NCBI GenBank assembly: GCA_016932575.1
Contig: JAFGCO010000048.1
Span: 62,001-126,000 of the forward strand
Direction: 5' to 3'
From: a bacterium
Lineage (GTDB): Bacteria; Zhuqueibacterota; QNDG01; JAFGCO01
Length of the DNA stretch: 64,000 nt
A program made the position numbers and the translations under genes. Position 1 is the first letter of the stretch. Every line of letters starts with the position of its first letter. Shown here one piece after another: positions 22,562-61,917 of the stretch. The notes beneath the pieces are model-generated. The model saw only the letters and a program-made list of their open reading frames with translations. It searched no databases and had not been told where the DNA came from.

Positions 22562-23869
22562 TTATTGATTCGAATTGTTGATGAGTGCCTGTGCCTTGTC
22601 ATTTTGACCCAATTGGTAATACACGGCAATGAGGTTGTGTTTTAAAAGATCATTGTTCTGATGGGCTTGAACCAGCCGAGCCCATCGGTTGCTCAATGCT
22701 TCAAGCTGGTCGGTATGATCGGCTGTGCGAATGACCAGTGGATAAAATTCCGGACTTTTTATATCAAGATTCAGTCCTTTTTGATAGATCTGAAATGCTT
22801 TGGTCCATTGCTCCTGCTCTTCATAAATTGACCCCAGATTTTTTAATCCTATCATGGATCTCGGGTTTAATGCAAGGAACCGTTCATAAACTTGTATTGC
22901 CCGATCCCATCTTTTTTGATTTTTATACACAAGGGCCAGTTGTTCCAGTAAAAGCGGTGCATCAGGGTGGCTTTCCAATAGATTTAGAATCAATGTTTTT
23001 AAAGATTCAGATGCAGCGGAGGGAAACCAGTTTAAAACCACACTTCTAAGCATTTTTTTTAACTCATCGACATTTTTTATTTCGACTGTCCCGGGAACCG
23101 GATTGGTGGAGCCATATTCTGATGAAAGTTGCATCATACTTTCTGAGATGCTGATCTCGAAAACAGCCCGTTTCAGAGCCTTTTCCTGAAACTGCCGGGT
23201 GAGACTTGTATCCGCATGTTTACGGGCATCGATAAATAATTTATAAGCGGACCGGGTCGTGCCGCCATTTTCTTCAGCCTGGAGATAAGCGGCCATTGCA
23301 CTATCGGATTGGCCCGTTTTCTCAAAAACCTGGCCAAGACAGGAAGAAGGCCACGGACTTTTGGGATCCAGATTTTTCCATCGTTTATAAAAAAATTCTG
23401 CCTTGCCATAATCGAAAATCTGTTCAGCCAGATCTGCTGCCTTAAACTGTAGCGCATTATTGTCCGGTTGATTCATAGCCAGCGGTGCAATGATCATCAG
23501 GGCAGAATCGAACTTGGCTTCATACTCATAGGTAGTGGACAGGAGGCGTGAGGCTTGCATGTTCTCCGGATGCATCCGCAGAACCTCCTGATAATAGATT
23601 CGGGCTTCTGAGAATCGGGATTGCATGAGATAGGTTGCAGCGACTTTTAAATGCAGGGATTCAGACTCGGGAAAGCGTTTCAGCTGTTTCAAATAATATT
23701 CACGGTCTGTTTCGATGTTCCTGTTTCTGGAGTGTATCTGATTAAGCAGTGAGTCAGAAAACAGAAAATGCTGGCCCTGGATGGGACCAGCACTGATTCC
23801 AACAATAAATAGCAGACTGTTTATATGGATATGGATAGAGTACTTTTTATTCAAGCGGATGTTTTTCAA
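22562..23869 (-). CDS. Secreted TPR protein, cassette copy A
   Basis: The 435-residue product has a signal-like N-terminus (LLFIVGISAGPIQGQ) and then helical tetratricopeptide-type repeats. Clear TPR units are SESLHLKVAATYLMQSRFSEARIYYQEVLRMHPEN near the N-terminus, LGQVFEKTGQSDSAMAAYLQAEENG in the middle, and consecutive units in the C-terminal half (LALVYKNQKRWDRAIQVYERF, then LGSIYEEQEQWTKAFQIYQKG). TPR arrays bind peptides or partner proteins, so it may be a periplasmic assembly factor; this is inferred. The start is TTG, aligned with the ATG of its paralogue at 43376. It is the distal gene of copy A, 32 bases after the FnIII gene. Confidence 0.8.
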   Translation of the reverse strand: MKNIRLNKKYSIHIHINSLLFIVGISAGPIQGQHFLFSDSLLNQIHSRNRNIETDREYYLKQLKRFPESESLHLKVAATYLMQSRFSEARIYYQEVLRMHPENMQASRLLSTTYEYEAKFDSALMIIAPLAMNQPDNNALQFKAADLAEQIFDYGKAEFFYKRWKNLDPKSPWPSSCLGQVFEKTGQSDSAMAAYLQAEENGGTTRSAYKLFIDARKHADTSLTRQFQEKALKRAVFEISISESMMQLSSEYGSTNPVPGTVEIKNVDELKKMLRSVVLNWFPSAASESLKTLILNLLESHPDAPLLLEQLALVYKNQKRWDRAIQVYERFLALNPRSMIGLKNLGSIYEEQEQWTKAFQIYQKGLNLDIKSPEFYPLVIRTADHTDQLEALSNRWARLVQAHQNNDLLKHNLIAVYYQLGQNDKAQALINNSNQ

Positions 23870-23901
23870 AATGCTGATTCCCGTTTATCTGTTTCTGCTG
23901 A

Positions 23902-25854: not shown

Positions 25855-26041
25855 AGAGTAATCCTTTTTATTCATTTTTCCTGCCTGTCGTTCAAGATGA
25901 TTGTTTGAAAGTGCGCGCCGCAGTTACCGATTTAAAAAAATGGATCAATCCTTTTATTTCCTATTTGTATCCATAGTATCGGTTTACAAAATCTTATCAT
26001 GACTCAAATTCGCATGTATCACGAACCTCTTAAACAACGTC

Positions 26042-35000: not shown

Positions 35001-36838
35001 CAGCCGTTTCCGGCTGCGGACCATCGGATCGGTATCTCACCCCCTTGACTGGCATTGATAAATTGGAGAGATCCGGTTAAATTGAAAGTATATTCCAAAT
35101 TGTCAATACCCTGAGCAGGCGTGATCCATCCGTCCGCTTCGGTTAAAATCATGGATAAATGATTTGGGATGAGCGGGATCCCAATGGTTACAGGTGACGT
35201 ACTCAGTTCGCCGTCCAGATAACCGCCGCCTGTCAGTGTTAAACGGACGGGCGTCTCCGCTGTGACAAAATCGAAAGCGGTAATGGCCGCCTGAAGATTG
35301 AAAACACCTTCACCGGAAGGATCGTACTGTATATTCCGGACGATCAAGGGGAGCCCTGCTCTGTTCAGATCAAACGGAGATCCCAGTCCTGCCCAGTTTT
35401 CCGCATTCACGGTTCCCGCTATTGGTTCCAGGGTATGGCGATTCAGAGTCAGATCGACTGTCGCATTCACAACGGCATCGGGTGCCAGGGTGTTGAGGCA
35501 CAGCGGGACCGAGTTCGGAGACGGGGATTTAATGATAAATTCGTTGGCATCGTCAGAGAGCGAGCATTCAACCAGACATTTCCCGTTTGCCTTCACCTGT
35601 AAGTAGGCGATTTCCTCTGCAGGCAGGGGCAGTCTCTCCGGAAGCAGTTCTGTTAAATCTTCGGGCAGGTCTGTATAAACATAAGTGAATGTGCGCACTT
35701 CACTTTTTCCGTCGTTTTGTGCCACCGGATATCCGTAATGATCATGGGCGGTCAACTGCCAGGCATACTGTTTTCCCGGTGTGAACGGATCCGCCCATTC
35801 AGGATATGAAAAACGCGTTTCTGTCAGCGTGATTGCGTTTTCGAACAGCGGTGTGTTGCCTTGCATGGCCTGGAGATCAGTCTGGCCTTCCAGAAGCGGA
35901 ACGATCCGCAGGGTATAGTAGATCATTCCTTCTATGTGGGCCATGGGAGGCAGCCATTCAAATTGAGGGAGTTGAGTTATGATCAGTGCACCTTGATCCG
36001 GAGCAATCAGTTCCAGTGAAGGCACGTCGTATGTGATGTCGGTGCTTATCGTAAACACGCCAATCTCACTGCAGCCGTTATTCTTTGTTGCGGGCCTGCC
36101 TTCAAGGTCGATCGCCTGTACCTGCCACACATAGGTTTTTCCAGGTTCAAGAAGCAAGCCATCCAGAGGATATTCGAGCTCAGAATCGAATACATTATAA
36201 TTTCGATAATGTGTATAATTGGCTTCGATCGCGATTTCAGGCAGCTGGCCATCCAGCAATTCCACCAGAGTGAAGACATAGGTGAACACCTGGGTAGCCG
36301 ACATCTGCGATGGAATCCATTGAAATACGGGATAAAATGTAAAAGCCTCTTCATAGTCAATGGGGTAGATCAATTCGGGAGGTTCGGGATGGGTAATCGT
36401 GAAATAGGAGCAAAGGTTTTGTATCAGGATTTTTTCCCAGAGATTGACCACTTCTACGCAGACCTCATAATCCGCTTCGGGGAGCATGCCCGTTTGTTCG
36501 ATTTTATCCTGAACCTCCGTATTTTTAAATTCGGTGATCCAGTGCGGGACAGTGGCCGGATCGATTCGGATCATATCGTTTGCCTCAACCAGAAGTCTGC
36601 CCGAATTGCCCCGGAAAATGAGATGACCATTGCGAACCACTTCGGCCCGTACAATAATGACATCAGCTTCATTCGTGTAGTTGAACACTTCGAGAGACAC
36701 CAGGGTGGGATCCGCCTGCCAGTCGCTGACATAGGGAGAAGGATTGGGATCGATTGTAAGCATGGCACTCCAATCCTGACCATGCAGGGATGTGCAGATC
36801 CCTAATAAATAGAGCGCAATGAATAGTCGGCCTTTCAT
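26042..36838 (-). CDS. Giant secreted multidomain protein (3598 aa), cassette copy A
   Basis: I do not recognise a characterised homologue. A signal peptide (FIALYLLGICTSLHGQ) leads into a DPNPSPYVSDWQ domain (about 20-150). Two Ig-like modules follow at about 156-390, each opening with a short LI-x-P segment (ELIYPID, ELIAPDQ) and containing TYVWQVQA/QYAWQLTA and a NNG/NDG-x-SE loop. A region of about 1300 residues (400-1700) is almost all beta-strand pattern. A Gly-rich beta region with DFGGGIFFNP (about 1875) runs to about 2145. A helical, partly coiled-coil segment spans about 2150-2620. The C-terminal 950 residues are FnIII-like modules with a recurring IGS-x-x-G-x-x-DI loop. It lies 187 bases upstream of the FnIII gene and 14 after the lipoprotein gene. 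Confidence 0.8.
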   Translation of the reverse strand: MKGRLFIALYLLGICTSLHGQDWSAMLTIDPNPSPYVSDWQADPTLVSLEVFNYTNEADVIIVRAEVVRNGHLIFRGNSGRLLVEANDMIRIDPATVPHWITEFKNTEVQDKIEQTGMLPEADYEVCVEVVNLWEKILIQNLCSYFTITHPEPPELIYPIDYEEAFTFYPVFQWIPSQMSATQVFTYVFTLVELLDGQLPEIAIEANYTHYRNYNVFDSELEYPLDGLLLEPGKTYVWQVQAIDLEGRPATKNNGCSEIGVFTISTDITYDVPSLELIAPDQGALIITQLPQFEWLPPMAHIEGMIYYTLRIVPLLEGQTDLQAMQGNTPLFENAITLTETRFSYPEWADPFTPGKQYAWQLTAHDHYGYPVAQNDGKSEVRTFTYVYTDLPEDLTELLPERLPLPAEEIAYLQVKANGKCLVECSLSDDANEFIIKSPSPNSVPLCLNTLAPDAVVNATVDLTLNRHTLEPIAGTVNAENWAGLGSPFDLNRAGLPLIVRNIQYDPSGEGVFNLQAAITAFDFVTAETPVRLTLTGGGYLDGELSTSPVTIGIPLIPNHLSMILTEADGWITPAQGIDNLEYTFNLTGSLQFINASQGGEIPIRWSAAGNGWQASAAVGQVVLPVGSYQLTLDILDVESFEYQSGNSVPWLYDFLLNVTPRLTSPVEFALPTLFDLHLMPKGLHFIEMDMNILQEQDIILNNLKITPDMVHIQEGWVNIFDGVSQPDIRFDLSLHLTGLPERLHELREASVSAFNVEYKNGSFIGPLEPRSYLSPLWAPLNNEESLGLHIQALDGNLTGNPEDPLQLSVTADFDPSQTVPGITMLGPVDSLSMDLSGLFAGHLKPAYDNIDFPWGDWSVHLNQSTFFLAGGNSGQAAGLRFDGFISLPAYSPDASVQASGQGRYDLIKAVLDSGKFIFTDPFTLPVPANNPVFSLRCTEGASVCASGIIFNNSDGEMLLEDGSRISVIYSQNVLISAIDHIPQQGIITFSESFALRIRDLNKAADQMSWKAVSIAASADSTAEEMIFNVTGSVRIVQGAWQFPQTASAHISYANMQFSNLNITCSTDLNLSFHPFQINTGQIQLFDGQELIATLDNRGFWPGDRFPVPGWQNLVRLPLPDETIAYLRLKDDSGSWLLDVQDMGLYIKLNTAQDRPVPLVLPGLRYGRSSDPEISAILDNVLVSKSNLIITEGTVRAADEDLPVSLLNASLPIELTAIHFAADDQTIMAAVRPLLPKVFESAFPTIPNILITQNGLDSFQLKDPTDNPLASITIGPQLNCTVASIDGSVMASEKRLILEGQLFVQLFQESGLIKPFDYTMNLQAGQAEFMIQPNYDETNEYTLPLGKARLDVTDKSGNPKVSMQAPFDDENLILTLHTLKLSLPEIGNGLVLMLNDLIIDKKGIQPPEIPTDPAQVFQYGGLNFTLEGEQRVAWETTPPGLMLTLGGTFQLWNRSISFSNLDIGTDGSVSEQNLLPDSVQALEGLLVLTGLTMSNGLKFEGELKPPAPFDALETTSFTINLDGNGIMVDETGNPITDHSITLLESESETAADVYLGQIPMRIRCRLSELKLGLPAPFSQATGNLNIGINTYWPKFELSDPMNSEEKILLTGLIDFDNGRITGETWTLEEAAAPAIVLEDLIILEVNHISVNTDDVFSIQLGGNLTLNCLPGGSGGCPFEEFVLTPNSTKFGRITNGELNLYGFKITVSDFNYGTDPLSFDFSAANISSGSVSQGSRSTKGFYVTFKASISTEVQGFEGGMDQFIIYKDATQFYLLFDNVNFELKDTVKGRLDLEARIPLTHENFQLRITAGGSLSIEDELSFTAVGEIAYEDRMVGGANVSLPGFGLFLAMSMKEGIKIGPVSVTDFGGGIFFNPSDRIEKWVYSHCELDNESEWLQTSFAQYTQTNPLIQVFVFGGVALVREETISGRALFSLSSDHIRLDASLTILKAMSDHLDITAKGHLETGLQDLNTMGSIGSFYLQGNLDIELKLKKLSDTGQKATVAFAVVYSDELYWGLQGNINIDILNILKANYDLIIGNPGFLIQGNISGGFDIGVLSVHAGLDNAVWVVWDQEHPSLGGYLLARIEAEVLAGLAAAKGELGAALIIIPDPYFYGYAKLRLSACWGLASWSGSVWARWRNGSFDGGLGGDPGIQIALAEAAEAARIIKGQTEQVAGALSAGDIPLKLALDEAMMDRIIKNISTGRTELYDLIDAEKYPLGRVLYNFPKYGGPDDGKEPSYADLTAMIDYHAFTDKILLALSPSTIAQIPALKQDADQYQKDLNTELQDHRNSLNQQCQKAKVTLEQLRTAIHLEELKSDTLSALKNPLLTGSSVSDEGVTVPAFDVDKSIHNENTILLNDYSSHVQTALADLQMQIEYLDSIRSVIYAVIGPDGDISRAMEKFVSPSMQSQIDASAINNMEAKYVIYRDVVDHVNQHIYGQSHMGTNLTHLHVYIDPNTTPLPIKTNENARQLFEDFQKDFHALVDRRIGVMEKLSNTMLDVDSWTLDLYGLCSAYETTSRQLYGKVPEAFALHTISQLDTLYLRATRIHRNYNADKDVMHRELTEKLDVIWDQYAELTEKLYTAYQQFILLARQNPDCSADLKNALTGMENRMKVLETELYLPSLCSFYVKESASGKRYSPVNLTLNMGDASNAGGIIEHAYTISGHNFQSIGKVSSFTAPIFPAKMGEESIGVKARYRNIAGLTVESPEKSITIQHGGNQPTTQFYQPVTPTAIPPEFPGQPLVIKNTSQKVTGVMSGTGMEQDCYLMSSGNQIVVSWPQALSSGEIAQYEISVWPWKGSSAIVDWKPAIHKDSASVVVNMEKGKPYEVRVRARDLTGLYSTPLVSEYPLVYNPSCIGFPENAQATVSISQSSVEELYAKLSLPLAGEIYFTTDDGVSCRKFYMENYEFQLLRNGSSIDAGAWKPVSGINSYEGTIQFNFQGNIPDLPLNLPFRETFQIALRVKNDENEIIVPAAVFEVQQIDDPTKPSSFSAEFRGWNADNELLIQIHEPCKDTESDIAGIQVAMGRSTDDLHLKPFQTDSKGHPLFDFGPEKNTVNAELSCPVNIDGSTLAQQNFVIVIRTVNGQNQFTETVLTHSALTLKPYILQPGYDSRDLPVLRIGGILNAQTLEVLITGGETSEILQEQIFSNPPGSVSLQLSDQFKTGPEYTTRIYKKDVNGFGYPHVDQSFTLPPHLPPITVEMSGDDQSMIILLSGEMDARSKMERVCTIYYMVGTGVNKEDIIPEKDFKIETEFRKSIFLPENIARGDVIYLSLRVSTEAGISSLLKSFRLAASFNDLLKNTDFYLSQENGLLCLHFNGSLHGESSAENLAGLKLWIGSIAGTSDIVEVTRIPLSSSQSTFSWTHSLTQTNIGPGSVLSLSVCGFDRKSNPTDTMLVQTTVPNISLPHLTLNIMHENEHDILVCTAEPVSFSNAEQVKFRIGSSRGSDNIQKDVSLTASAPEYRRDLDPSNRGQIWILTARSVAASGTYSLTCYHELKIGTLEAPSLTGTLRQAEDCCLLQLKQSEGILYPLELWVGTSPQVHDILDPAMYPAQSQWDIILPGVTLGRIPLYVMARYVNQTDISPVALLVLSQSE

Positions 36839-36852
36839 AGGTATAACTCCGT

Positions 36853-39813
36853 TTATGGGCTATTGATCGTTAAACTGAATGTTTTCGTATCTGAGTAGTC
36901 CGAACATAGGTCATCTATAACCCGGATTGTGAAAATGTAAGTTCCGGATGCTGTCGGCATACCATTGAGTTCTATACCATCACAATAAAAGCTCTCAAAA
37001 TTTATCCCCGGAGGTGTGCTTCCTCCGATGATTGATCCTGTATATTGCTTACCACCGGATCCGCCCGAGACACTGATCAATTTATGGTACGATGTGCCGA
37101 CAGTGCCAGCCGGCAAGGGAGAGGATTCGGTAATCACCAGAGGCGTAGGGGGAAAAACTTTGAAATTACTGTACGCTTGTGTGTCCTCTGCCAGGATAGC
37201 GTCTGTCACTTTGATGGTAAAATTGTGGGAACAGTCAATCGTTGTCGGTGTACCGGAAAGTAATCCTGATGACGTATTCAATGACAGGCCGGATGGCAAT
37301 GAGCCCGAACTGACGCTCCAGGAATAGGGTGTTGCCCCGCCCATGGCATGGATCGTCTGACTGTAGGGGACACCCTGCGTTGCATCGGGCAGTGATGTGG
37401 TTGTGATGGTGAGCAGTGTGAATTCCTTGATGTTTATTTTAAATCCTTTGCTTTCGCTATGACCGTAGCAGTTATCAGTAATCGTAACACTAATTGAATA
37501 ATTGCCAGCAGAGCTGGGAATGCCCTCAATCGATGCACGGTCACCATTGACATCTAATTGTAAACCAGGCGGAAAGCCTGAAGCTGTCCAGCTGAAGTCG
37601 CCGCTGCCGCCATTCGCCGTAATCGTTTCGGAATACATCGTATTTTGAGTGCCGTCTGAGATATGATCGGGTGAAATCCAGATCAGAGGCAGCTTGATTG
37701 TCAGGGTGTATGCCTGGGTATCGCACTGGGCAGGCACGTTGGGATCGGCAATACGGATTGTAAATGGGAATTCACCGGCTTCTGTAGGTGTGCCCCTAAT
37801 AATGAATCCATCCTCAGTATAAAACTCCATGCCCGGAGGCAGGCGGCCATCAATAATTTCACATGTTAAATTCTCATATGTATCAACTTGTATGTAAATA
37901 TCTGCATTATAGTATTCGTCGATTTCTCCATCCGGCAATGAGTCGGTGAGAATACGCAACCGGGGTCCATGAATTGTGATGCTGAATTCCTGATGCACCT
38001 CCATGAAAGTGTCAGTACTGTCTACTAGCCAAAGGGTAAACGGATATACTCCTTCCTGTTCGGGCGTGCCTGTAATCGTGGCGCATCTTTCGTAATCGTC
38101 GTATTCCAAAGTGAGTCCAGAAGGCAGCAGATCGGGCTGGAGGTGCCAAATTAGGGGGAGTGTACCTCCAACCGCACATATTTCCTGCTCGTAGGGCGAT
38201 TCCAGATAGCCATCCGGAAGGGTTTCCAGGGAAAATTGTAATTGGGCGGCTTTATCAATTAAAATGATATACTCTTTTTGTAATGCGGCGGGCGGGGAAT
38301 CGCTGTCCGACACCTCAATGATGATGGTGTCCCCTCCTGCTTCAACAGGGATTCCGGAGATTTCCAAGCAGCTTTGAGATTCGGCTGTCAGTCCGGCGGG
38401 CAATGACCCCTGAATAATTGTATACGTATAAGGAGGAAGGCCTCCGGCCGCGCAGATGCTGGCTTCATAGAGTTCGTTCTCAATTCCCGAATCCAGTGTG
38501 GACGGAGTGATGGACAGGTCCTGTAACGCGGGTTGCACATTTAATGTAAATACAATCCGGGTTTGTGCTTCAGGCGTTTCTGGATGAACTCCCAGCGCAT
38601 CCCAGGAGCAGGTTCCATCCGTATCAGGCATACCCGTAAAACAGATGGATCCATTGATATCGATGGTGAGCCAGACCGGATACTCGGAGCACATCCATTG
38701 ACAGGATACCAGATCGTTTGGCAACATATAACAGTCATGATAGTCACGATCCACGCGGCCATCCTCCAGGGTCACGTTCAGGACTTCGACAGCAGGTGAG
38801 ACAATGATCAAATTTCCATGAAATGTCACCGATTGCTGCGGATTGCCGCTGTCATGGATATCGATCGTCAGCGGGTATGTGCCCTGGAGTGTTGGAATGC
38901 CGCTGATGATGATGCAGAAATCGGATAATGCAGCGGTCAGACCGGGAGGAAACACGCCGTCCATGAGCTCCCAGTCGCAGGGTTCGGTGCCGCCCAGGAA
39001 ACAGATGCAGCCCTGATATTCAAATCCTGTCACGCCAGTGGAAAGCGTGGTCGTGGTGAGTTCGAGAGTATCCGCGGTTTCTACTTGAATCCCAACAATT
39101 CCGCTCCATGGAGATGTGGCCAGGAAATTTTTTGCATGTACCCTGTAATAGGTGATGCCATCCGGTTTTCCGGTGATCTGAACACTGGTGTCGAGTCCCG
39201 AATAGACCTGAACCGGGGAGGTGAAGTTCGTTTCCGCGCTTTCTTCCAGTTGAAATGTATCCGCCTTGGCCACATGGGTCCAGAACAGTTGGTAATGATC
39301 CATATTGATTGTGTTCATTGTTTCAAGACCGACAAACTGGGGTGCCGCTGTCGGATAATTGGGCACGATGGGGAGCTTGATTTGAAGCTGATTGGGCGGC
39401 TTGATTAATATTTTGGTCGTGTCGGCACAGAAAAAAACGACTCCGTTTTGATCCATGGCTTCGATCAGAATATTATAGATGCCAAGCTCTGCCTGAATTG
39501 TATAGGATGGCAATATTTCCATGAATTCGAAAATGACCGGTCCCGGTTCCAATGTAATGCGTACCATGGATATGACAGGAATTGTATCCAATTTTGTTGA
39601 AGATAATTTCAAGGGTTCGATTTTTTTTATTGGCTCTGAAGAGGCGGTTGTCAATGCCGGTTTTTGCACAGACTGACTATCTAAACTCTGTTCGAGGGTA
39701 GACCAGTCGATATTCAGTGTGACCGATCCGAGCTCAGGAGATAAAGTGTTTTCGCAATTCATCTGCAGAAGAATCAGGAGCAGGAACATCTGGATGGTAT
39801 ATAACTTTTTCAT
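36853..39813 (-). CDS. Lipoprotein with eight putative-Ig (He_PIG-type) repeats, cassette copy A
   Basis: The 986-residue protein starts MKKLYTIQMFLLLILLQMNC, a likely lipoprotein signal, though Asn before the Cys is not ideal. Residues about 30-150 are a conserved beta domain (VTLNIDWSTLE, LEPGPVIFEF, LGIYNILIEA). An FnIII-like domain follows (about 155-245, WTHVAKADTFQLEES). Eight tandem repeats of about 90 residues fill the rest, with the pattern LPxGL ... ISGxPTxxG ... FTIxVxD of the putative-Ig family. Repeats 1-4 each carry a C-x(20-35)-C pair, repeats 5-7 do not and repeat 8 has only one Cys. AAGGAG is seven bases before the ATG, identical in the paralogue. It probably sits on the outer membrane as an extended rod; that is inference. 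Confidence 0.85.
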   Translation of the reverse strand: MKKLYTIQMFLLLILLQMNCENTLSPELGSVTLNIDWSTLEQSLDSQSVQKPALTTASSEPIKKIEPLKLSSTKLDTIPVISMVRITLEPGPVIFEFMEILPSYTIQAELGIYNILIEAMDQNGVVFFCADTTKILIKPPNQLQIKLPIVPNYPTAAPQFVGLETMNTINMDHYQLFWTHVAKADTFQLEESAETNFTSPVQVYSGLDTSVQITGKPDGITYYRVHAKNFLATSPWSGIVGIQVETADTLELTTTTLSTGVTGFEYQGCICFLGGTEPCDWELMDGVFPPGLTAALSDFCIIISGIPTLQGTYPLTIDIHDSGNPQQSVTFHGNLIIVSPAVEVLNVTLEDGRVDRDYHDCYMLPNDLVSCQWMCSEYPVWLTIDINGSICFTGMPDTDGTCSWDALGVHPETPEAQTRIVFTLNVQPALQDLSITPSTLDSGIENELYEASICAAGGLPPYTYTIIQGSLPAGLTAESQSCLEISGIPVEAGGDTIIIEVSDSDSPPAALQKEYIILIDKAAQLQFSLETLPDGYLESPYEQEICAVGGTLPLIWHLQPDLLPSGLTLEYDDYERCATITGTPEQEGVYPFTLWLVDSTDTFMEVHQEFSITIHGPRLRILTDSLPDGEIDEYYNADIYIQVDTYENLTCEIIDGRLPPGMEFYTEDGFIIRGTPTEAGEFPFTIRIADPNVPAQCDTQAYTLTIKLPLIWISPDHISDGTQNTMYSETITANGGSGDFSWTASGFPPGLQLDVNGDRASIEGIPSSAGNYSISVTITDNCYGHSESKGFKINIKEFTLLTITTTSLPDATQGVPYSQTIHAMGGATPYSWSVSSGSLPSGLSLNTSSGLLSGTPTTIDCSHNFTIKVTDAILAEDTQAYSNFKVFPPTPLVITESSPLPAGTVGTSYHKLISVSGGSGGKQYTGSIIGGSTPPGINFESFYCDGIELNGMPTASGTYIFTIRVIDDLCSDYSDTKTFSLTINSP

Positions 39814-39880
39814 GGCAATGCTCCTTCTTAATAAGCAATATCTTCTATCATGACAGCCATTTAAATACGTATGTCGAATT

Positions 39881-41620
39881 TTACAGTTTATGTGTCAGCA
39901 TCAAACTGAACTGTTGTTCTTCATACTTTCTATTGCTGCGTATCATGGTCATGAACCATTTAAAATTGATCTGATTTTTATGGGTCAGGTAATAACTTGA
40001 CGTTACACCGCTTCGGATGGACCGGGTATCCCGTACCATGGACGAGGTACTGAACAGGGATGTGCTCAATCGGTTATTCATTGCAATATGGGTTAAACGG
40101 GCGGAATAGACCTGTGTCGTGTAGGCATCCTGGTTGCCTGAATTGCGATAAGATACACCCACTGAGAAATTCATGGTCAGTCTGGTAATCAGTTGAAACG
40201 AGCCGGTCAGATTTACAGTATGATAATAAGCCTTTGATTTTTCCTGACGCATATTTTTATCAGAGTGTTGAAATGTATATTGCATGCCCATTTGCCTGAC
40301 GATCGATTCATTAAAAACCAGAGACTGATGGGTGGATATGATCCAGTTGGAAAAATCCCAGCTCAGGGAATCGCTCGAAGCGTTGTTTCCTGTGAACAGC
40401 GAATTTACATTGAAATTGGAACGCCAGTTTCCCAGTCGAGAATTGATCGATCCCTGGATCTGATCGCGTGTATTGGTTTCCTGTTTCTGTTTTGACAGGT
40501 TGTCAGACAGACGCACGTACCGTATATTTAACCTGTGTTTTTCAAAACGATAGATGGTTTGAAGATTCAATTCTCTTCGGTCATTCACCATGGATGGCAG
40601 TCCGAGTGAGTGAAATCCGGGACCAATGGTTTTGTACCCGATCTGTGTGGTAAGTTGGGTCGTTTGAAAGTGAAGCCGCAGGTCCGTGGCATAATCCAGA
40701 TTCGAACCGGTTCTTGGCGTGAACACGTTTCTGGAGAGCGTTTTCAACCAGGTGGGGGCATCCAGGCTGTCCTGGTTGACGGGTCTCGCATTGATGTTCT
40801 TGGTATAACCGCTGGCCGTGCTTTCCCATTCCAGAGTCAGCCTCTGGTTTAAAATCGTAAGACGTGTGGCTATGCCAGCGACCAGATTCTCCCGGGGTGT
40901 AACTGCCAGAGGATGATACGGGGGTTCTATCCAGATTGTGTCCGTTTCAGTTTCCAGTGTATCGGGAATCACATAATTATAGTCAACATTTTCCGGCACT
41001 GAAAGAGAGCCCGCATCATCTTTAACTTTCAGGACAATCAGATCAATGTATGAGCCGTTTTGTTTCCCATATCCCAGACGCGAGCCGATGAGGTATTGAC
41101 TGTAACTCTGATTGATTACAGTCCCTTCCACGGCCCGTTTGGTCTGGCCGCCACCCAGCGCGAATCGCATCCGCCCTGGGAAAATGTCGATTTCAGCGCC
41201 TTTGACATTGATTCCGTTGAGTGAATATCTGGAGAATTGACCTGGATAATCTCCGAAATGTGCCTTTCCCCATGCCCATGAGGGATGCAGACCCAGAATG
41301 TTCATATTCTGACGGGTCCGCGATCCTTCCGTTGATAAGAGCAGATCCGCTGATACATTGAACAAATTGGAGATCTGCAGAAGAGGCCGAAATCCGATTC
41401 TTCCTGTTGATGGCGGCCTTCTTCCCTCAATCCCATGGACATCGTAAAGTTCACCGTAAACATGAGCCTGTCCTGACAGCCGAACCTGTTGCAGGATTGG
41501 ATATTTTTTGGACAATTCCTGAGCGTTCAGTGTTGTTGCAGGATTTCTGATTTCAATCATGAATATCAAAGAAAGTAGAATCTCTAAATTGCAAACCGTT
41601 CTTTTGAACAATTTTTTCAT
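39881..41620 (-). CDS. Outer-membrane beta-barrel-like protein, cassette copy A
   Basis: The 579-residue protein has a hydrophobic N-terminus (LEILLSLIFMIEI) and a likely cleavage near TLNAQE. The mature chain is dominated by alternating polar/hydrophobic strands with aromatic girdle residues. Examples are QAHVYGELYDVHG, GRIGFRPLLQISN, WGKAHFGDYPGQFSRYSLNG, RFALGGGQTKRAV and the closing QFSLMLTHKL. This suggests an integral outer-membrane barrel; no TonB box, plug or POTRA domain is seen. The ATG at 41620 (GGAT seven bases upstream) gives the same length as copy B, so a TTG 66 bases upstream is rejected. It is first in the operon and the best conserved of the five families: 56 of 65 residues match copy B in a block I aligned by hand near the N-terminus. 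Confidence 0.78.
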   Translation of the reverse strand: MKKLFKRTVCNLEILLSLIFMIEIRNPATTLNAQELSKKYPILQQVRLSGQAHVYGELYDVHGIEGRRPPSTGRIGFRPLLQISNLFNVSADLLLSTEGSRTRQNMNILGLHPSWAWGKAHFGDYPGQFSRYSLNGINVKGAEIDIFPGRMRFALGGGQTKRAVEGTVINQSYSQYLIGSRLGYGKQNGSYIDLIVLKVKDDAGSLSVPENVDYNYVIPDTLETETDTIWIEPPYHPLAVTPRENLVAGIATRLTILNQRLTLEWESTASGYTKNINARPVNQDSLDAPTWLKTLSRNVFTPRTGSNLDYATDLRLHFQTTQLTTQIGYKTIGPGFHSLGLPSMVNDRRELNLQTIYRFEKHRLNIRYVRLSDNLSKQKQETNTRDQIQGSINSRLGNWRSNFNVNSLFTGNNASSDSLSWDFSNWIISTHQSLVFNESIVRQMGMQYTFQHSDKNMRQEKSKAYYHTVNLTGSFQLITRLTMNFSVGVSYRNSGNQDAYTTQVYSARLTHIAMNNRLSTSLFSTSSMVRDTRSIRSGVTSSYYLTHKNQINFKWFMTMIRSNRKYEEQQFSLMLTHKL

Positions 41621-41776
41621 GATATTGATCCATTTATGAGTTAAATGAGAAAATTGAGCGTTGATTGCGAATAAAAGATCGTTCAAGAATGGTGGTATAT
41701 TACCAGAGTAATAGGATTAACTCCGATCCATATGAAGGATAAAAAATCTCATTCAAGTAACAAATGGGATTTAGAA

Positions 41777-41797
41777 GTCCCTCCCGAAAAAATATAT
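41777..41797 (-). promoter_or_regulatory. Conserved 5' UTR element, copy A
   Basis: On the minus strand ATATATTTTTTCGGGAGGGA lies about 157 bases before the barrel start codon. A similar sequence stands about 155 bases before the copy B barrel (61703-61726), while most of the surrounding leader does not align. It may be a regulatory site or part of an RNA structure. Confidence 0.4.
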
Positions 41798-41822
41798 GTT
41801 TGTATTATTATTATTACAAGAG

Positions 41823-41851
41823 AATGTATGTAGAAAAACAGTGCTTGTCAA
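41823..41851 (-). promoter_or_regulatory. Candidate promoter of cassette copy A
   Basis: On the minus strand a consensus TTGACA (41851-41846) and TACATT (41828-41823, two mismatches) are 17 bases apart. Transcription would begin near 41816 and give a leader of about 195 bases before the barrel gene. No other good promoter was seen in the 454-base gap. Confidence 0.5.
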
Positions 41852-41980
41852 GCGAAAATAAAATTGATATTTATCCGAATTTGGGTGGATCCTGTATGGA
41901 ATTTTAAAGTCATATTTATCAATTCAAAGAATCAAATATTTTCTTTGGATATGAAAAAATCGCATTCTTTAATTACAAAC

Positions 41981-42052
41981 AATGTGATGAATGATGTATT
42001 TGATCCGGAAATCGACCGGGAGAACAAACCAAAACGACCGTTACCCAGTGGC
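41981..42052 (+). pseudogene. ubiA remnant at the cassette junction
   Basis: The 24 codons read N-x-x-NDVFD-x-x-IDR-x-NKP-x-RPLPSG, matching the intact ubiA at 62083-62154 in 18 of 24 residues and 54 of 72 bases. This is the first Asp-rich active-site motif of UbiA prenyltransferases. The rest of the gene is missing: no membrane segments follow, and within about 20 bases the sequence runs into the 3' end of the copy B TPR gene on the other strand. Five codons differ only by synonymous changes, which suggests the copy was under selection for a while before decay. It is on the same strand and at the equivalent place relative to the barrel gene as the intact ubiA. Confidence 0.82.
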
Positions 42053-42074
42053 ATTCGATTGCATGAAAGGAAGA

Positions 42075-43376
42075 TTATTTCTCGAAATCATGGAGGAGTT
42101 TCTGGGCTTTGTCGTTCTGACCGAGCTGGTAATATACCGCAATCAAATGCCGTTTAAGAAGATAATTGTCATTATGTGCCTGATACAGCCGTGTCCATCG
42201 ATCGCTTAATGTTTTCAACCGTTCAGCCTTTTCGGCCGTTCGAATAACCAGCGGGTAAAATTCCGGATTTTGAAGATCCAGGGATAATCCTTTTTGATAA
42301 ATTCGAAACGCTTGCAGCCATTGACCCTGGTTTTCATAAATTGAACCCAGATTTTTTAATCCTGTCGCAGATCTGGGATTCAGCGTAAGAAACCGTTCGT
42401 ACACACGAATCGCGAGATCCCATTTCTTTTGTGCTTTATATATATAGGCCAATTGTTCCAATAAAAGGGGGGCATCCGGATGCTTCTTCAGCAGAGCCTG
42501 GATTTGTGACTCCAGAGATGCGCATGCAGGCGAGGGAATCCAGTTGTGAACCACATTTCGCAGCATGGTTCTCAGCGCTTCCATGTCTTTTATCTGACTC
42601 ATATTCACAGTCTGATTGCCGAACAGCCTTTCGGATGAAAACTTCCATCGATCCTCAGCGACAACAATTTCGGAAACTACACGCTCGATGACTTTTTCCT
42701 GATAGACCCGGGCCAGGCTTGTATCCGCCTGCCTTCGGGCGTGAGTCAATAATTTATATGCGGACCGGGCAGTACCGCCTTTTTTTTCAGACAAAAGATA
42801 GGCAGCCCTTGCGCTGTCCGGTTGTCCCATTTTTTCAAATATCCGGCCCACATGGGTCATTACCCATGGGTTTTCCGGATCTGAATTTTCGCACTGTTTG
42901 TAATAATTGATGGCTTGTGTTAAATCGGATATTTGTTCGGAAAGGCTGGCAGCTTTAAACTGTAGGGCAATATTGTCTTCATACTTGACCGCGAGCGGTT
43001 TGATTGTCATCAGAGCTGAATCCTGTTTGCCTTCCTGTTCATAGGTCCAGGCTAAAAGCCCATTGATTTGTATATCATCCGGTCGTTTGCGGAGTATCTG
43101 ACGATAGCACTTTCGGGCGTCGGGCCATCTGGACTGCATGAGGTAAGTACCCGCAATTTTCAATTGCAGGGAATCGGAGTCCGGAAATCGATGCAGCTGA
43201 CCGAGATAATATTTCCGTAACTTATCGAGATTTTCGGATTGAGATTGAATTTGGCTGAGAAGGGAGTCCGGAAACAGAAAATACTGGGCTTGTACGGGGC
43301 CTGCAACGATTACGAAAATCAAAAACAGGCTTTTCAGCTGGAGAGGATCTTTATGAACCAATCTGATTTTTATCAT
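42075..43376 (-). CDS. Secreted TPR protein, cassette copy B
   Basis: The 433-residue paralogue of the protein at 22562 has a hydrophobic N-terminus (SLFLIFVIVAGPVQAQ) with a good AQ cleavage site, then the same helical repeat pattern, for example LKIAGTYLMQSRWPDARKCY and LGSIYENQGQWLQAFRIYQKG. The C-terminal third is nearly collinear with copy A, with the shared block EFYPLVIRTA and the end LIAVYYQLGQNDKAQ. The ATG overlaps the FnIII stop (TAATG), implying translational coupling and so joint function. Its 3' end abuts the ubiA remnant. A role as a periplasmic or surface assembly partner is inferred from the TPR fold and context only. Confidence 0.8.
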   Translation of the reverse strand: MIKIRLVHKDPLQLKSLFLIFVIVAGPVQAQYFLFPDSLLSQIQSQSENLDKLRKYYLGQLHRFPDSDSLQLKIAGTYLMQSRWPDARKCYRQILRKRPDDIQINGLLAWTYEQEGKQDSALMTIKPLAVKYEDNIALQFKAASLSEQISDLTQAINYYKQCENSDPENPWVMTHVGRIFEKMGQPDSARAAYLLSEKKGGTARSAYKLLTHARRQADTSLARVYQEKVIERVVSEIVVAEDRWKFSSERLFGNQTVNMSQIKDMEALRTMLRNVVHNWIPSPACASLESQIQALLKKHPDAPLLLEQLAYIYKAQKKWDLAIRVYERFLTLNPRSATGLKNLGSIYENQGQWLQAFRIYQKGLSLDLQNPEFYPLVIRTAEKAERLKTLSDRWTRLYQAHNDNYLLKRHLIAVYYQLGQNDKAQKLLHDFEK

Positions 43377-45328
43377 TATTTTTCAGAGGCGATTGCCGGT
43401 ACTGATTGACTGAAATCACTTTCATTGCCGGATGTGTCGACTGCCCTGACCCGGTACCAGTGATGAGGTTGACCTTCTTTGTCATTCAGGGTAAGCCCGG
43501 ATAACAGGGTATCGTTGATCGGTTGATAAATGCCGGTCTCGATTTCTGCCCGGAATACACGATAACCAGCAAGATCCGATGCTGCGATTCGCTCCCATTG
43601 AATGATTACGCCGCTTTTTTCCGCTTTGGCCTGTAGAAACCGCGGACAATGCGGTGGATCATAATCCCGCATCATTACTTTAGCAGAGAGGGCGGGTTCA
43701 CTTTCGTTTCCTGCTGTATCCACAGCCGTGATACTGTATTGGCAGGTTTCTCCTTTAACCACCGTGGTGTCGGTCCATTCCCGGACGGTCGCAGGAAGTC
43801 GTTCCAGTTCAAGGGTGGTGCCGTTACAGAGCCTGGTCAGCCGGTAAAGTGATATATCGGTCGAGGGGCTGGGATTCCATATAATCCGCATTGCGTTTGC
43901 CCCGGTCACGGCACGCACATCACCGGGCTTTCTGGGAGGCTGGTCATCCGGAAGTGTCACCCAAATATCCGTCTTTTCACTCTCATGCCAGGAGCTGTCC
44001 ACGACGGTTACGGCATAATAATAATGCCGGCCCGGTTGCAGTTTTTCTGCGGTACCGTCAATATAGACTGTGTCCGGGATGAGGGCTTCAGATAATGCAT
44101 ATAAGGTCTCCTCAGAGAATCCGCGGTACACCCGGTATCCCTGAATATCCGGATCTGAGGCAGACTGCCATGCAAGTCTGATCTGATGATTATAAGGCCG
44201 GGCATGCAGATTCAGAGGCGGAGATGGAGGCATTCGGTCTTCAATCCAGATGCTGACCCGGTTGGAAGCCGGGCTTTCATTGCCGGAAGAATCTGTGGCA
44301 GTGACAGCGTAAAAGTACTTATTTCGGGGCTGACAGGTGGCATCTATAAACCAGGGATCATCCGCCGATACCGGATCTTTGTTGATCCGTGACATCGCAG
44401 CGGTCATTGTCGGCGCCCGATATGCATGATAGGCGGCAATATCCAGTTCCGGATTCAAATTCCAGATCAGACGGACGTGCCCATCTTTTAACTGCGCTGT
44501 CAGTCCGAGAGGGCGGGACGGCGGCACGATATCGATAAATCGTCCGCAGAGTATTTCAGAAGGTTCACTTTCAAGACCGGCCGCATTGACGGCAGTCAGG
44601 TAATAGCAGACGCTGTCTCCCGGCTGGACATTCCGGTCCAGAAACGACATGGCTGTTCTTTCCAGGCGCAGGAGATGGTCTTTAATTCTTTGAAAATCCT
44701 TCCCGATCTGTTTGTAGAGATAAAACTGAACAGTTATATCATCAGAATCCGGATGCCATGGCGGATATTCCCATGAAATTTTCATGCCCAGCATTTGAGA
44801 CTCAAGTTTGATCTGATGAAGAGGCTTCGGACGGTTTTCAGCGATTCGAATTGTTTTTTCGAGGATTTGCAGGGTGTTTCCGCGGCGGTCGACCAGGCGA
44901 ACACGGTACACATAGTCCGTTCCCGGTTGGTGGCTGCCTGAAGCAAAAAACCGTCCAAGAATACGCCCGACCCTGCGATTCAGCATGGTAAAAATACCGC
45001 CGTAAAACGGATCGTTTCGTAATAAAAACAGGGTTTGCTGAATATTTTCGGTCTGCAGCGCTTCGGCGATGCCTGAATAGTCTTCTCCGAGCATATGCCG
45101 GGCCTCATCAGAAGACAGCACGGGCCTGATCGGCATTTCGGTGATCTGAATAAAGTCTTCATCGTTTGGTCCCCGGCGTTCAATCAGCACGGACTGGCCG
45201 ATTGCCGGTGTTTCAGTAAGGAAAATAAACACTGAATCCTGCTTGACAGCCGAATAAAAATTTTGCTGCGAAAAGAGGGATTGATTTAAAAGCAGGAGAA
45301 TCCAGCCATATTTGAATTGACCATTCAT
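43376..45328 (-). CDS. Secreted protein with five FnIII domains, cassette copy B
   Basis: The 650-residue paralogue of the protein at 23902 has the same plan: signal peptide (WILLLLNQSLFSQ), a unique N-terminal domain with TPAIGQSVLIE, SSDEARHMLGEDYSGIAEAL and LNRRVGRILGRFF, then five FnIII domains. Domain linkers such as DIVPPSRPLGL, DRMPPSPPLNL, DDQPPRKPGDV and DYDPPHCPRFL are easy to place. The last domain ends HHWYRVRAVDTSGNESDFSQS. The start at 45328 has AAGGA seven bases upstream, shared with copy A. The conserved N-terminal domain is not one I can name and is the part most likely to hold the cassette-specific function, perhaps anchoring to the giant protein. Confidence 0.82.
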   Translation of the reverse strand: MNGQFKYGWILLLLNQSLFSQQNFYSAVKQDSVFIFLTETPAIGQSVLIERRGPNDEDFIQITEMPIRPVLSSDEARHMLGEDYSGIAEALQTENIQQTLFLLRNDPFYGGIFTMLNRRVGRILGRFFASGSHQPGTDYVYRVRLVDRRGNTLQILEKTIRIAENRPKPLHQIKLESQMLGMKISWEYPPWHPDSDDITVQFYLYKQIGKDFQRIKDHLLRLERTAMSFLDRNVQPGDSVCYYLTAVNAAGLESEPSEILCGRFIDIVPPSRPLGLTAQLKDGHVRLIWNLNPELDIAAYHAYRAPTMTAAMSRINKDPVSADDPWFIDATCQPRNKYFYAVTATDSSGNESPASNRVSIWIEDRMPPSPPLNLHARPYNHQIRLAWQSASDPDIQGYRVYRGFSEETLYALSEALIPDTVYIDGTAEKLQPGRHYYYAVTVVDSSWHESEKTDIWVTLPDDQPPRKPGDVRAVTGANAMRIIWNPSPSTDISLYRLTRLCNGTTLELERLPATVREWTDTTVVKGETCQYSITAVDTAGNESEPALSAKVMMRDYDPPHCPRFLQAKAEKSGVIIQWERIAASDLAGYRVFRAEIETGIYQPINDTLLSGLTLNDKEGQPHHWYRVRAVDTSGNESDFSQSVPAIASEK

Positions 45329-45368
45329 AGAGAAATCCTTCATATTATTGATTTATTCAACATCCGAT

Positions 45369-48300
45369 TTATGGATTCACACGGTACGGAGCTGTCAGGG
45401 TGGATCTGTATGATCCCTGGTAATATCCGCCATTCGGCACCGCGTAATCTACACTGACATTCAGTGATTCATCCGGCCCCAGAGTCACCGGCAGCTGCGC
45501 TTCACGGATGAATTGTCCGTTCACGAGAAAACGGCTGAACCGGATATCTGTCCAGACAAGAATGGGTGTGTTGTTCTTTTTCACCACAACGGACAGCAGT
45601 GCCTGATCATGGTCTCGTACGGTTTCCGGATCGATTTTACAGACAAAATATTCATATCCGCTGGGTTTCTGGTAGAAATAAACTTCGGCTTCAGGAGCGC
45701 GGGGTTTCGGCATAAACGTATTTTCGGACACATGTGCATAACCGGAAGCAGCAACCGCTTTCAGGCTGATCCAGACTTTACCCGGCATATGGGTCGTTGA
45801 ATCGGGCAGGAGGACGGAGCTGCCGGGCTGGATCTCTGAGGGATTGAAATCATAAGTTCCCTGTGCAGGATAATTCCGGATGTCTGTGGCGCCGGAACGG
45901 CTGCCGATGGCGTATTGGACCCCGGCGACCGGTTGTTCTCCTTTGAAAGCTTCATATTGAATCATCACTTCCGGACGATGATCCGATTCCCGTATGTTGC
46001 CGATGATATTCTGATAGTCTGAGCGTGAGACAAGCAAGACTGTCACGGGGGATCTGTCATCTCCGCTGACATATCGTGCTGTCACGAATAGCTGATGTCC
46101 GTCGAATGCCTCGTTGGAAAACAGAAAATCCCACCGGTTACTGGCCCAGCCAGTTTTAGGGGTAAAAATATCCCGGGCCTGCGGCGCGGCTCCACCCCAG
46201 ACTTCGATGTTAGAAAAAATCGGTTGTGAAGAGGACTGGCTGAATAATCGTAATAAATATTGGCCGGTCGCCTGGAAAAGCTGACCTGTCAGCACGGGTG
46301 CGTCAAGCGCGCTCACGCGGGTTTCAAAATAACAGGTAAGAGAAGGTGTTCCATCCGAAGCAAAACCGCGTGCAGTAACAGTCAGGGTCCTGCCCCGGCA
46401 GTCATCTGGAATCGAAATGCGATATGATGGTTCAGAAGACGTCAGTGCCGCGCCGGTCAGAACGTCATTCTGTCCCCTGGCAGAACCGATCCTGAATTCC
46501 ACATGATCCGCCTGGCTGAATGAGGACGGATCTGCGCTGCCGACCAGCAGGATTTGCCCATTTTCAGAAATATATTCAAAATCCAGCTTCGGCAGGGAAA
46601 CATTGGGGAGTGCGGTTTGCACGTGCAATGTGTCAGTCAAAGTCAGGCCTCGATCATAACCGCAGACCGAGCCATGCAAACTTGAACCGGGGCCGATTTG
46701 ATCTTCAGGCAGAGTGGTTTTCCATGCGAATGTTTTTTGCGGTGGAGTCAGCGCTACATTTACCGCTTTTAAAATATCATCATTGCCGGATTCAGTGCCT
46801 ATCCAGAGTTTAACACCGGAGAGATTGCCGGATACGGCTTCCTCGTAAAGTGTTCCTGCCAAATGCGCATAGTAACAATTGTTATCCCGTGTCAGATAAA
46901 AATCCGTGTCCGTGAACAAGCCGCGATAGGGAATGGCAAGCGGATAGACTTTTAATTCAGAATAGATATCCTGATTCGTTGAAACACGCATAGAGAGATA
47001 AATTCTGTCACCTCCCCGAAGGCTGTCCGGAAGAATGATGCTTCTTTCAAAGTCGGATTGGATTCTGAATGCTGTTTCTGCCAGAATATTTTCCTGACCC
47101 CGTCCGCGGCCGACTCGGTAATACAGGGTCTGGACCTGCTCTGCTTTTGCGCGGTCATCCAGGGTGCCCTTGATCTGAATTTTACGAAACCGCCCGTCGT
47201 CATTGATTTGCATGGTGACCGGCGGTAAATGCGGCCTGAGCGCAAAGGCCTGATCCAGGGCCGGATGGTACAGACCGTTTTTATCTCTATTATGGATTCG
47301 AGCCGTATATTGACTTCCCACTTTCAATGATGCGGGCAGTAAAAATGAAACAGATCCGGATGGGCGCGGCAAAACCGTTTCCTGAAGCATTTCCGATGAG
47401 GCATTATCGATAATCCGCACGATCAGTGTCTGGGCATTGAGAATGCCGCTGATGCTTAAATAGGGACGGTCCGAAGGATTATACCCGATCGTCAGAATAT
47501 ATGGCTGACTCGTCAGGGCCGACTGTTCCAGGACCGTTTCCGCGAATTGATGCTGAGCGTTGACCATGCGTATGGCGATCACAAAATCCGACTGGGCCAG
47601 CACCGATCCATCCATGCTCAACGGACAACTCAGGAGATCGTTCGTTCGATTTTTCTCAGGACCAAAATCGAAAAGGGGATGACTATCCGCATCATAGCGG
47701 AACGGTTTGATGCCGAGATCATCAGCGCTGCGCCCGACAGCCACCTGAATCCCCGAAACGCCGCTTTCCCCGTCCACCGAGGGCTGAAGGATTTTGATCA
47801 GGAGATTTCCGTCGATATCCCATCCCTTGAATTCAGCAGTGCATGCGGATGGTTTTGTCGCATCCTGGATTTGCTGAATTTGAAAAATGCTGGCCGGAAC
47901 CACGATTTCACCGGTATTGTTTTTAACCCGGAGCGCGATTTCAAAACTTTCTTTAAACGGCAAATTGTTGGGCAGGCAATAGGTGCCTCCCTGAAAGTAA
48001 AATTTGATGATGCCGTTGTAGGATTGGATTGTGATGTCTGTTGAATATTCAGAAACCGATTCCCATGCGTTTTCATTGATGGCGGCCCCATTTCGCAACA
48101 ACTGAATTTCATAATGATTTGTATAAAATTTTCGGCAGGTTCCTTTGCTTTCAGAAGTGAAATAGTATTCCCCGGCCAGAGGACCCTCGGCCTGTGAACG
48201 CAAATGAGACTCCCCGAAATCCAGTGTCGAAGCCGTTATGCGGGCACCTTCCGGAAATCCGATGTAATCGGGATTGTAAACCAGAGGGGCATCCGAGATC

Positions 48301-51300
48301 AGCGGTGTGCCGGTCTGCCCGGCCAGGTCTTTTGCACGGACCATCACTTCATACGGCTTTCCCTGTTCCATCACAACCGCCACACTTGCAGAATCCCTGC
48401 TGATGGACGGTGTCCAGTCCACGACGGTTTGGTGATCATCCCAGGTCCGGACTGCGACTTCATACTGCGCAATACCGCCTGAAGCCGACTGGGCCTGCGG
48501 CCAGGCAATGCGAAGCCGGCTGCTGGTGTTCAACAGGTAACATTCTTGATAAACACCGTTTTTGGACAGGTGCCCCCAGACCTGCTGATACGTATTTTTA
48601 ATAATGAGTGGCTGATTGGGGAACGCGGGCGGAGAAGTCGGAATCGTCGGTTCATAGGTCTGTTCCGTGACCTGAGTGCCGCCATGCTGAATAGAGAAGT
48701 TCCTCCCCGCTGATTCCACGGTTAATCCGGCCGTATTCCGGTAGCGCGCCTTGAAATTCATTTGTTCCGTTTGTCCCATGACGGCCGGAAATACGGGCGT
48801 GGAAAAGGAGGCCTTTGTCCCGGTGGCCTGAAAATTACTGCCGGACAGGGTATAGGCGTATTCGATGATGTCGTCCGTGCCGGAACCGCCTCCCAGGCTG
48901 AGAGAAAGATCAACCGGTCCGTAACGCAATCCGGGTTCCGATTTGGTGACGGATACACTTGAAGGAGCCGGAAGGTACAGTTCCTGTTCAAGCGTTTTCA
49001 TCCGGTTTTCCATGTCAGAAAGCGCATTTTTGAATGCATCCGGCAGGTCCGGAACCTGTTTGGCAAGCATAATGAATTGCTGATAAGCTGTATAGAGCTT
49101 TTCGGTCAACTCCGCATACCGGTCCCATAGGACATCGATTTTACCGGTCAGATCCTGGTGCATCATGTCTTTATCTGTAATGTAATTTCTATGAATGCGG
49201 GTTGCCCGGAGGTACAGGGTGTCCAGCTGGACCTGTGTATGCGAGGAGAAAGCGAACGGCACCGTGCCGTAGAATTGCCGGGTTGTGGTTTCGATGCCTT
49301 CGCACATTCCGCCCAGATTGATTTCCCAGGCATCCACACCCCGCATGGTATCGGCCAGTGCGTCCATGGTTTCGATCCGGTGATCCAAAGCAGCTCTGAA
49401 TTTAAGTTCATAATATGGAACCGACGCATCATCAAAGTTGATCAGATTTTGCAGGCTGCGCAATTTCATGGCCAGATCGCCGTCCGGCGAAAACACATTC
49501 TGATTGATTTGATTTTTTATGCCCTGATACAAGTCAAATTTTGTTTCCATGTTTGTGAAAATCGGAGCGTTTATCTGGCTCTGCATGGCGGGGCTGACGA
49601 ATTTCTCAAGCGTCATACTCATATCGCTCCCCGGACCGATTACCGAGTAAATTTCAGAACGCAGGCTGTCCAGATAGGCAATCTGATTTTTCATATCGTT
49701 TAAAGCCGTCCCGACATTGCTGGAATAATTATTTACCAGGGATTTGTTGTTCTCATAAACCGATGTATTGACCTGAAAGGAGGGGACTGATACCCCGCCC
49801 GCCGAAGCGGATGTGCCCGGACCGAGGGGATTGTTCAATGCGATTGTTGAATCGTGTTTTGTCGTTGCAATTGAAATGGCGGTCTGCAGTTTCTGAAGAT
49901 CGGCTTTGGCTTTATCTGACTGATCTTTCAGGGCATTGCGATGATTCTGCAGTTCGGTTTCTAAATCCTCCTCGTAAGTATTCGCGTCCTGTTTCAGAGA
50001 TTTCAACTGCTGAATGGTCGAGGGACTTAAGCCATTGCGAACCTTCTGGACAAAGCTGTTGAATCCGGATACATTGGGACCGAATCCCACACCGTTCAGA
50101 ACATCTACTACAAACTGGCGGTCGGTTTCCAAAGCGTCATACAAACCGGTTCTGCCTGCAGAAATGTTGTTAATGATTCTTGCCATCATGGCTTCGTCCA
50201 GACCGAGTTTCAGTCCGATACTGCCGGCTCCCAAAGCGGATGAAACATCATTTGTCTGATCTTTAATAGCGTCGGCTGCTGCGGCCGCTTCCGCGAGCAC
50301 TTTTTCCATGCCAGGAGCGTCTCCCAATCCGCCGTCAAAACTCCCGTCTTCCCATTTGGCCCAGGCGGTCGCGTTCCAGTCCCATCCTAAAAAGCCGCAT
50401 TCGAGTTCCGCGTATCCGTAAAAGTAAGGAGAGGGGATAATCAGCAACGCAGCACCCAGCTCGCCTCTGGCCCAGGCCAGTCCCCAGGCCACCTCGGCAT
50501 CCAGGTATCCGGTCATATAAGCGCCCATGGATGGATTCGAGCCGTCCCACACGACCCATAACGCATTCTCCAGTCCGGCATCGACAGACAGAATACTGAT
50601 ATCAAAACCGCTGTGAATGGATCCTTCGATGAGAAAACCGGGATTGCCGACGATCAATTCATAATCGGCGTTCAGAATGTTCAGAATTTCGATATTCATG
50701 TTGCCGTGAATGCCCCAATACAGGGTTCCGCTGCTGTGCACGAGTCCGAAAGCCAGAGATGCCGAAGGACCGATATCATTCAGCTTTTTCAGTTTGAGTT
50801 GCACGTCCAGGTTGCCTTCAAGATAAAAATTGCTGAGATTGCCCATGGAAATCAGGTCCTGAAATCCTGCTTCGATATGGCCTTTGGCTGATATTTCGAG
50901 AAACGGTTTCATGGATTCGTAAGCCAGAATCGTCAGGGAGTTGTCCAGGCGGATGTGATCCGAGGCCAGAGAGTAAAGAACACGCCCCTTGATGGCGTCC
51001 CCGTCCGGCAGAGACACACCGCCCAGTATAAATACTGAAAGCAGGGGATTGGTCTGAGTGTACTCGTCAAAAGAGGTTTTCAGCCATTCCGATTCATTGT
51101 TCAAACCGCAATTGCTGTACACCCAGTCCTCGATGCGTGCCGTCGGATTGAAAAAGATGCCGCCGCCCACATCGGTAATGGTAATGGGCAGGGGAGTAAG
51201 AGTGATTTTCTGTCCCACCAGCCCCAGAAAGAGACCGAAACTGGGCATTTTGGTCTGCTGCCCGAAAATCATGTCCTCTTTAAACGCGATTTCGCCCACG

Positions 51301-56774: not shown

Positions 56775-56796
56775 AATTTAAACCCCGTTCATTCGG

Positions 56797-59763: not shown

Positions 59764-59808
59764 GGGGATGCTCCTTTTTAATTGATCTTTTTATCTATCA
59801 GCCGCATT

Positions 59809-61766: not shown

Positions 61767-61917
61767 GTATTAAATTGTTATTTTTCTGACGTATTTCACG
61801 GGTCGTTCCGAAGATGGAAAAACGCAAAATCCAGATTAAATAATACAGATGGAGCCGGCTGATCCAATCAATGAAAAATGATTGCATTTTACCGGGCAAA
61901 CCGTTATTTTTATTTTT

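Follow-up and report, generated by a model that had tools for sequence, protein, structure and literature searches.

An archaeal-type ether-lipid gene pair has been reported for bacteria of the FCB group (PMC7852524). The genome considered here resembles those bacteria in carrying both a DGGGP-synthase-like UbiA and a PcrB, i.e., GGGP-synthase, family gene (PF01884, 156.6 bits; G000:C69:11368-12069). It differs in that the two genes lie apart rather than adjacent and are known here from sequence, and together they may be viewed as a candidate archaeal-type ether-lipid pathway. The UbiA gene has its ATG at 61918, within an open reading frame that opens at TTG 61882. Its best NCBIfam models are the prenyltransferase PRK12884 and then, second by rank, the geranylgeranylglycerol-phosphate geranylgeranyltransferase PRK12882 (DGGGP synthase; 229.2 bits versus a curated cut-off of 296), with both scores below cut-off. 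Contigs of relatives that match, G047:C2 and L081 among them, suggest a place for the window in the KSB1/Calditrichota area.

61918-62757, plus strand: intact ubiA-type prenyltransferase, DGGGP-synthase-like (PF01040, 148.9 bits)

That pathway is not the subject here, which is instead a 72-bp relic of a second ubiA. The relic shares with the DGGGP-synthase-like branch of the UbiA superfamily (PF01040) the first Asp-rich motif block. Unlike its full-length intact neighbour, however, it retains only 24 of about 280 residues and so is not a working enzyme. A further likeness is to the pseudogene relics of old segmental duplications, that is, a collinear doubled block with one functional flanking gene and one decayed partner. 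In this case, though, nothing but the catalytic block remains, and that block would have been under selection rather than neutral for most of its history.

The window, i.e., the whole 64-kb stretch of DNA analysed (G000:C71:62001-126000), reads in order serB, cassette A, relic, cassette B, ubiA, dtd, and maf. Cassettes A (22562-41620) and B (42075-61548) are collinear, spaced by about 19.93 kb, and consist of five genes each. All of these are on the minus strand and encode barrel-like, He_PIG, giant, fn3, and TPR proteins. Both ubiA and the relic are on the plus strand instead, each facing a barrel gene.

21224-22447, minus strand: serB, left neighbour of cassette A
22562-23869, minus strand: cassette A TPR protein
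23902-25875, minus strand: cassette A fn3 protein
26042-36838, minus strand: cassette A giant secreted protein, 3598 aa
36853-39813, minus strand: cassette A He_PIG (Ig-like) protein, with lipobox-like signal peptide
39881-41620, minus strand: cassette A barrel-like protein
42075-43376, minus strand: cassette B TPR protein, its C-terminus aligning with copy A to the stop
43376-45343, minus strand: cassette B fn3 protein
45369-56774, minus strand: cassette B giant protein, 3801 aa
56797-59763, minus strand: cassette B He_PIG protein
59809-61548, minus strand: cassette B barrel-like protein, 72% amino acid identity to that of A

The giant secreted proteins (26042-36838 and 45369-56774) give almost no Pfam signal, and the two copies seem to differ at their C-terminal ends. 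A structure model of the barrel protein has many long strands but, with a mean pLDDT of 56, is too weak for a fold search.

Barrels A and B are 72% identical, versus at most 56% for other barrels found. The barrel tree pairs the two on a long stem (support 100/100), and at conserved residues 57% of codons are shared between A and B versus 34-46% with others. By these comparisons the two cassettes are sisters. The pair is also highly diverged, with a dS of 1.4-2.05 across all five genes, which is near synonymous saturation. Relative rates indicate that A is slightly faster in places, if inconsistently so. Homologous spacers of the two cassettes are unrecognisable except for a short segment lying between the barrel and He_PIG genes. 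Neutral DNA of this age thus does not survive at 75% identity, given both that dS and the condition of the spacers.

The relic and its surroundings are as follows:

41621-41980, no strand: left flank, an A+T-rich spacer from the start of barrel A to the relic, 26-31% G+C
41981-42052, plus strand: ubiA relic, 72 bp, equivalent to codons 68-91 of the 291-codon ORF 61882-62757
42053-42077, no strand: right edge or junction zone, including the stop codon of the cassette B TPR gene, without ubiA similarity or terminator-like site
62083-62154, plus strand: homologue of the relic within intact ubiA, from pairwise alignment

In translation the relic reads NVMNDVFDPEIDRENKPKRPLPSG (41981-42052, plus strand), which is the first Asp-rich motif block of UbiA (NDxxD...IDR..KP.RPLPSG), and it aligns gap-free with the intact ubiA block at 62083-62154 (plus strand). 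An earlier note on this DNA had described a same-strand, 24-codon similarity to the ubiA active site, and that description stands, with 18 of 24 residues and 54 of 72 bases identical. The similarity also withstands shuffling: the local alignment scores 36, and no shuffle exceeds 21 with match/mismatch scoring (z 11.9; 0 of 500 shuffles, versus 2 of 500 with gap-tolerant scoring). As a blastn query against the whole genome, the relic DNA finds ubiA at E 4.9e-7, its sole non-self match below E 0.4, and the intact UbiA protein, searched against the whole 4.41-Mb genome, matches only itself and the relic. A profile built from relatives' UbiA scores the relic at 33.3 bits (E 1.1e-11, six frames of the zone), while the Pfam UbiA model scores it at 25-27 bits (E about 1e-5), which is under the curated cut-off. 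All 13 positions conserved in the family are unchanged. Descent of the relic from a UbiA prenyltransferase gene is confirmed by these sequence matches. Neither the transmembrane helices nor the second Asp motif of a full-length UbiA is present, and there is no ubiA signal to either side of 41981-42052. The block, that is, reads as a relic rather than a gene, one which is real but as gene relics go fairly ordinary.

The relic's edges are sharp, with neither 41621-41980 nor 42053-42078 holding ubiA signal. Direct comparisons of the flanks extend the DNA match neither left nor right (p 0.26-0.77), and the left flank has no detectable counterpart in the B spacer, in codons 1-67 of ubiA, or in the rest of the genome. 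The in-frame peptide upstream of the relic gives local alignment p values of 0.4-0.8 against UbiA. Its resemblance to UbiA (FIRI..PV) is therefore a likeness by eye only and was rejected. A right-anchored profile score of the same peptide has a p of 0.013, but that score is 6 versus about 240 for real genes. As a separate observation, the A+T-rich DNA upstream (41834-41980) has no in-frame stop over 49 codons, with a chance of 0.015, and is without a clear UbiA N-terminal signal. G+C is 46% in the relic and 45% in ubiA, versus 26-31% in the left-flank spacer.

On its right the relic ends 22 bases from the stop codon of the copy B TPR gene (42075-42077), which agrees with the roughly 20 bases noted earlier. 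The relic had also been placed in the same position relative to the barrel gene as is intact ubiA. This is so for order and strand but not for spacing, as the distance from barrel to block is 360 bases in A versus 534 in B. The difference of about 174 bases represents roughly the first 55 codons of ubiA, which are missing on the A side.

A simple reading of this arrangement, and the one originally offered, is of a tandem duplication whose right-hand breakpoint fell within ubiA, making the relic a truncated fragment that has been dead since birth. Such a reading calls for a single event, and both the order and strand of the parts and the abutment of the relic on the TPR stop of copy B (22 bases) fit it. 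Indeed, the relic does sit at the boundary between the A and B copies of a doubled cassette, so that much of the proposal stands, and its place beside the TPR stop would fit a tandem junction. A right end within ubiA, on the other hand, is without support. Aligning the spacers, which had been suggested as a means of locating both breakpoints, mapped neither, with the homologous A and B spacers having decayed to noise. Nor could codons 1-67, which on this model should precede the relic, be detected there, and the missing first 55 or so codons would require a second event even under this model. A breakpoint inside ubiA would leave a 5' fragment dead from the start, which is against the signature of selection to be described next. 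It conflicts as well with the earlier note's own remark that the second ubiA may have stayed functional for some time.

Of those two claims it is the latter that fares better. Nonsynonymous differences in the relic are fewer than synonymous ones (pN 0.177 versus pS 0.50; Fisher p 0.019). All six of the replaced residues (6/6) are at family-variable positions, outside of the 13 conserved ones (permutation p 0.0018), with conservation of sites judged from the UbiA of 24 relatives. Neutral decay since birth should instead have spread changes regardless of codon position or family conservation, and such spreading is not seen in the relic. As the relic was found by its good preservation, these tests are somewhat generous, though the effect size is large. 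Three of the relic's residues, M, P, and E at block positions 3, 9, and 14, are unseen among the 24 relatives, and some decay or altered constraint has thus occurred.

Simulations point the same way. A branch neutral from birth, at a dS of 1.4 and above, never reached an identity of at least 54 of 72 (400 runs each). At the dS values tried that did yield cases (0.3-1.0), and given the observed identity, the 13 conserved positions were never spared. With 10-25% of the branch neutral (dS 0.5-1.4), those positions were spared in roughly 3-20% of cases, and with selection throughout they were spared in all cases, which is partly by construction since the constrained model forbids changes at those 13 positions. 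The relic's own dS estimate is low, at 0.8. At that value a fragment dead at birth could still reach the observed identity, and it is the residue pattern that excludes it. A dead-at-birth fragment is rejected by these simulations, leaving a breakpoint inside ubiA improbable. Given that replacements avoid conserved positions, and that neutral-birth simulations almost never match, the second ubiA probably worked, evolving as a functional gene, over the greater part of the divergence.

With sister cassettes, and with each barrel gene facing either ubiA or the relic, the alternatives are a doubling of the unit of cassette plus ubiA and the import of a sister copy. The former, as a doubling of the complete ubiA along with the cassette, long selection, and later loss of the inner copy (ubiA') by deletions, is the reading that on balance appears probable. 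A unit consisting of the five-gene cassette plus a whole ubiA would have been doubled in tandem long ago, within this lineage, such that ubiA' and barrel A faced each other as intact ubiA and barrel B do. Purifying selection would then have acted on the two ubiA copies through most of the period that followed. Loss of the inner, redundant copy would be more recent, probably via deletions that removed its first 55 or so and last 200 or so codons and thereby left its 24 most conserved codons 22 bases from the TPR stop of copy B. As neither end of ubiA' survives, the account calls for two or more losses, or else a single loss together with the junction. Standing against this sequence of events is a mild coincidence, i.e., that exactly the most conserved 24 codons should survive a recent loss. 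Long retention of a redundant ubiA is also unexpected, and relatives with two full ubiA copies or with the cassette beside ubiA were not found. In addition, three of the relic's residues are foreign to the 24 relatives, as noted, and the relic is no closer to the ubiA of its own genome (54/72) than to that of G002 (55/72), a member of the same order but of another family.

That last point bears on import, in which the second cassette and its piece of ubiA would have come from a sister lineage with the same arrangement, joined by homologous recombination on one side. Cassettes A and B, along with ubiA and the relic, would then have diverged in separate lineages, each with a single and needed ubiA, one of which died upon joining. 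Selection on both ubiA copies is thereby accounted for without long redundancy, and the relic is indeed as close to the ubiA of G002 as to that of its own genome. The cassette, moreover, seems to be mobile between lineages, as the barrel tree mixes families of the phylum, grouping copies from different ones, which suggests transfer. Its barrel gene is found in 9 of 82 genomes of the phylum, this one included. Nevertheless, no other barrel found groups with either A or B as closely as these two do with each other, the two cassettes are alike in composition, no donor with the cassette beside ubiA is known, and the missing 5' codons still require a second event. Duplication within the lineage and import from a close relative are both possible in light of the sequences, with import the rather unlikely one. 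Codon usage offers a soft indication that the relic belongs to this lineage, in that it and the ubiA of its own genome use the same codon at 13 of 18 residues versus 42% pooled (p 0.01). It is soft because G002 gives 12 of 18. A tree of the relic did not resolve (53% support), 72 nt being too short.

Comparison with relatives leaves the ancestral gene order as only inferred, since a single-copy relative with serB-cassette-ubiA order, which the earlier note had suggested looking for, was not found among the relatives' genomes examined. In the ubiA neighbourhoods examined from genomes of the phylum, ubiA, dtd, and maf are usually together, without cassette or serB, and the cassette is nowhere beside ubiA. 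A clear orthologue of serB was not found in relatives of the same order. No same-genus or same-family genome is present among the phylum genomes searched, nor did closer relatives turn up in GTDB-220 genome contigs (best UbiA 48%) or in viral contigs.

A different perspective is that the 72 bp are under selection today, not for UbiA catalysis but in the role of a short peptide or a DNA element that arose from the UbiA active site. A branch without any neutral phase does best fit the residue pattern, the relic is an island of 46% G+C within a spacer of 26-31% G+C, and its frame is open for 107 codons. The residues that have been kept, however, are those conserved for UbiA catalysis, which is impossible with 24 residues. 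Searches of folds, sites, and Rfam for a functional RNA, terminator, or promoter found none, that is, neither an unusual RNA fold nor a terminator or excess of promoter-like sites in the relic, nor an Rfam family in the window. An obvious ribosome-binding site is lacking as well. Selection of this sort is very improbable. About as improbable is an assembly artefact, i.e., a false join between contigs of two related organisms. The genome does consist of 72 contigs, with 2.7% contamination, but a single false join cannot strip ubiA' at its two ends. Neither a run of N nor shared sequence is seen at the junction, and composition is similar on both of its sides.

As read here, the relic would record the doubling of a lipid-enzyme gene together with a 19-kb envelope cassette, with the extra copy of that gene probably having worked through most of the period that followed. 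This bears on how large surface cassettes spread and are doubled in a little-known bacterial phylum. It also urges caution, in that a gene fragment found at a junction need not mark a duplication breakpoint.

Elsewhere in the window, a single reading frame at 10587-11918 combines a cytidylate kinase domain with an acyltransferase domain in a fusion. Among the relatives, the barrel gene of one genome was read in two pieces (L071, G001:C23, 2282-3881), possibly reflecting a frameshift or sequencing error, and two others, G004 and G011, have two barrel copies each, on separate contigs.
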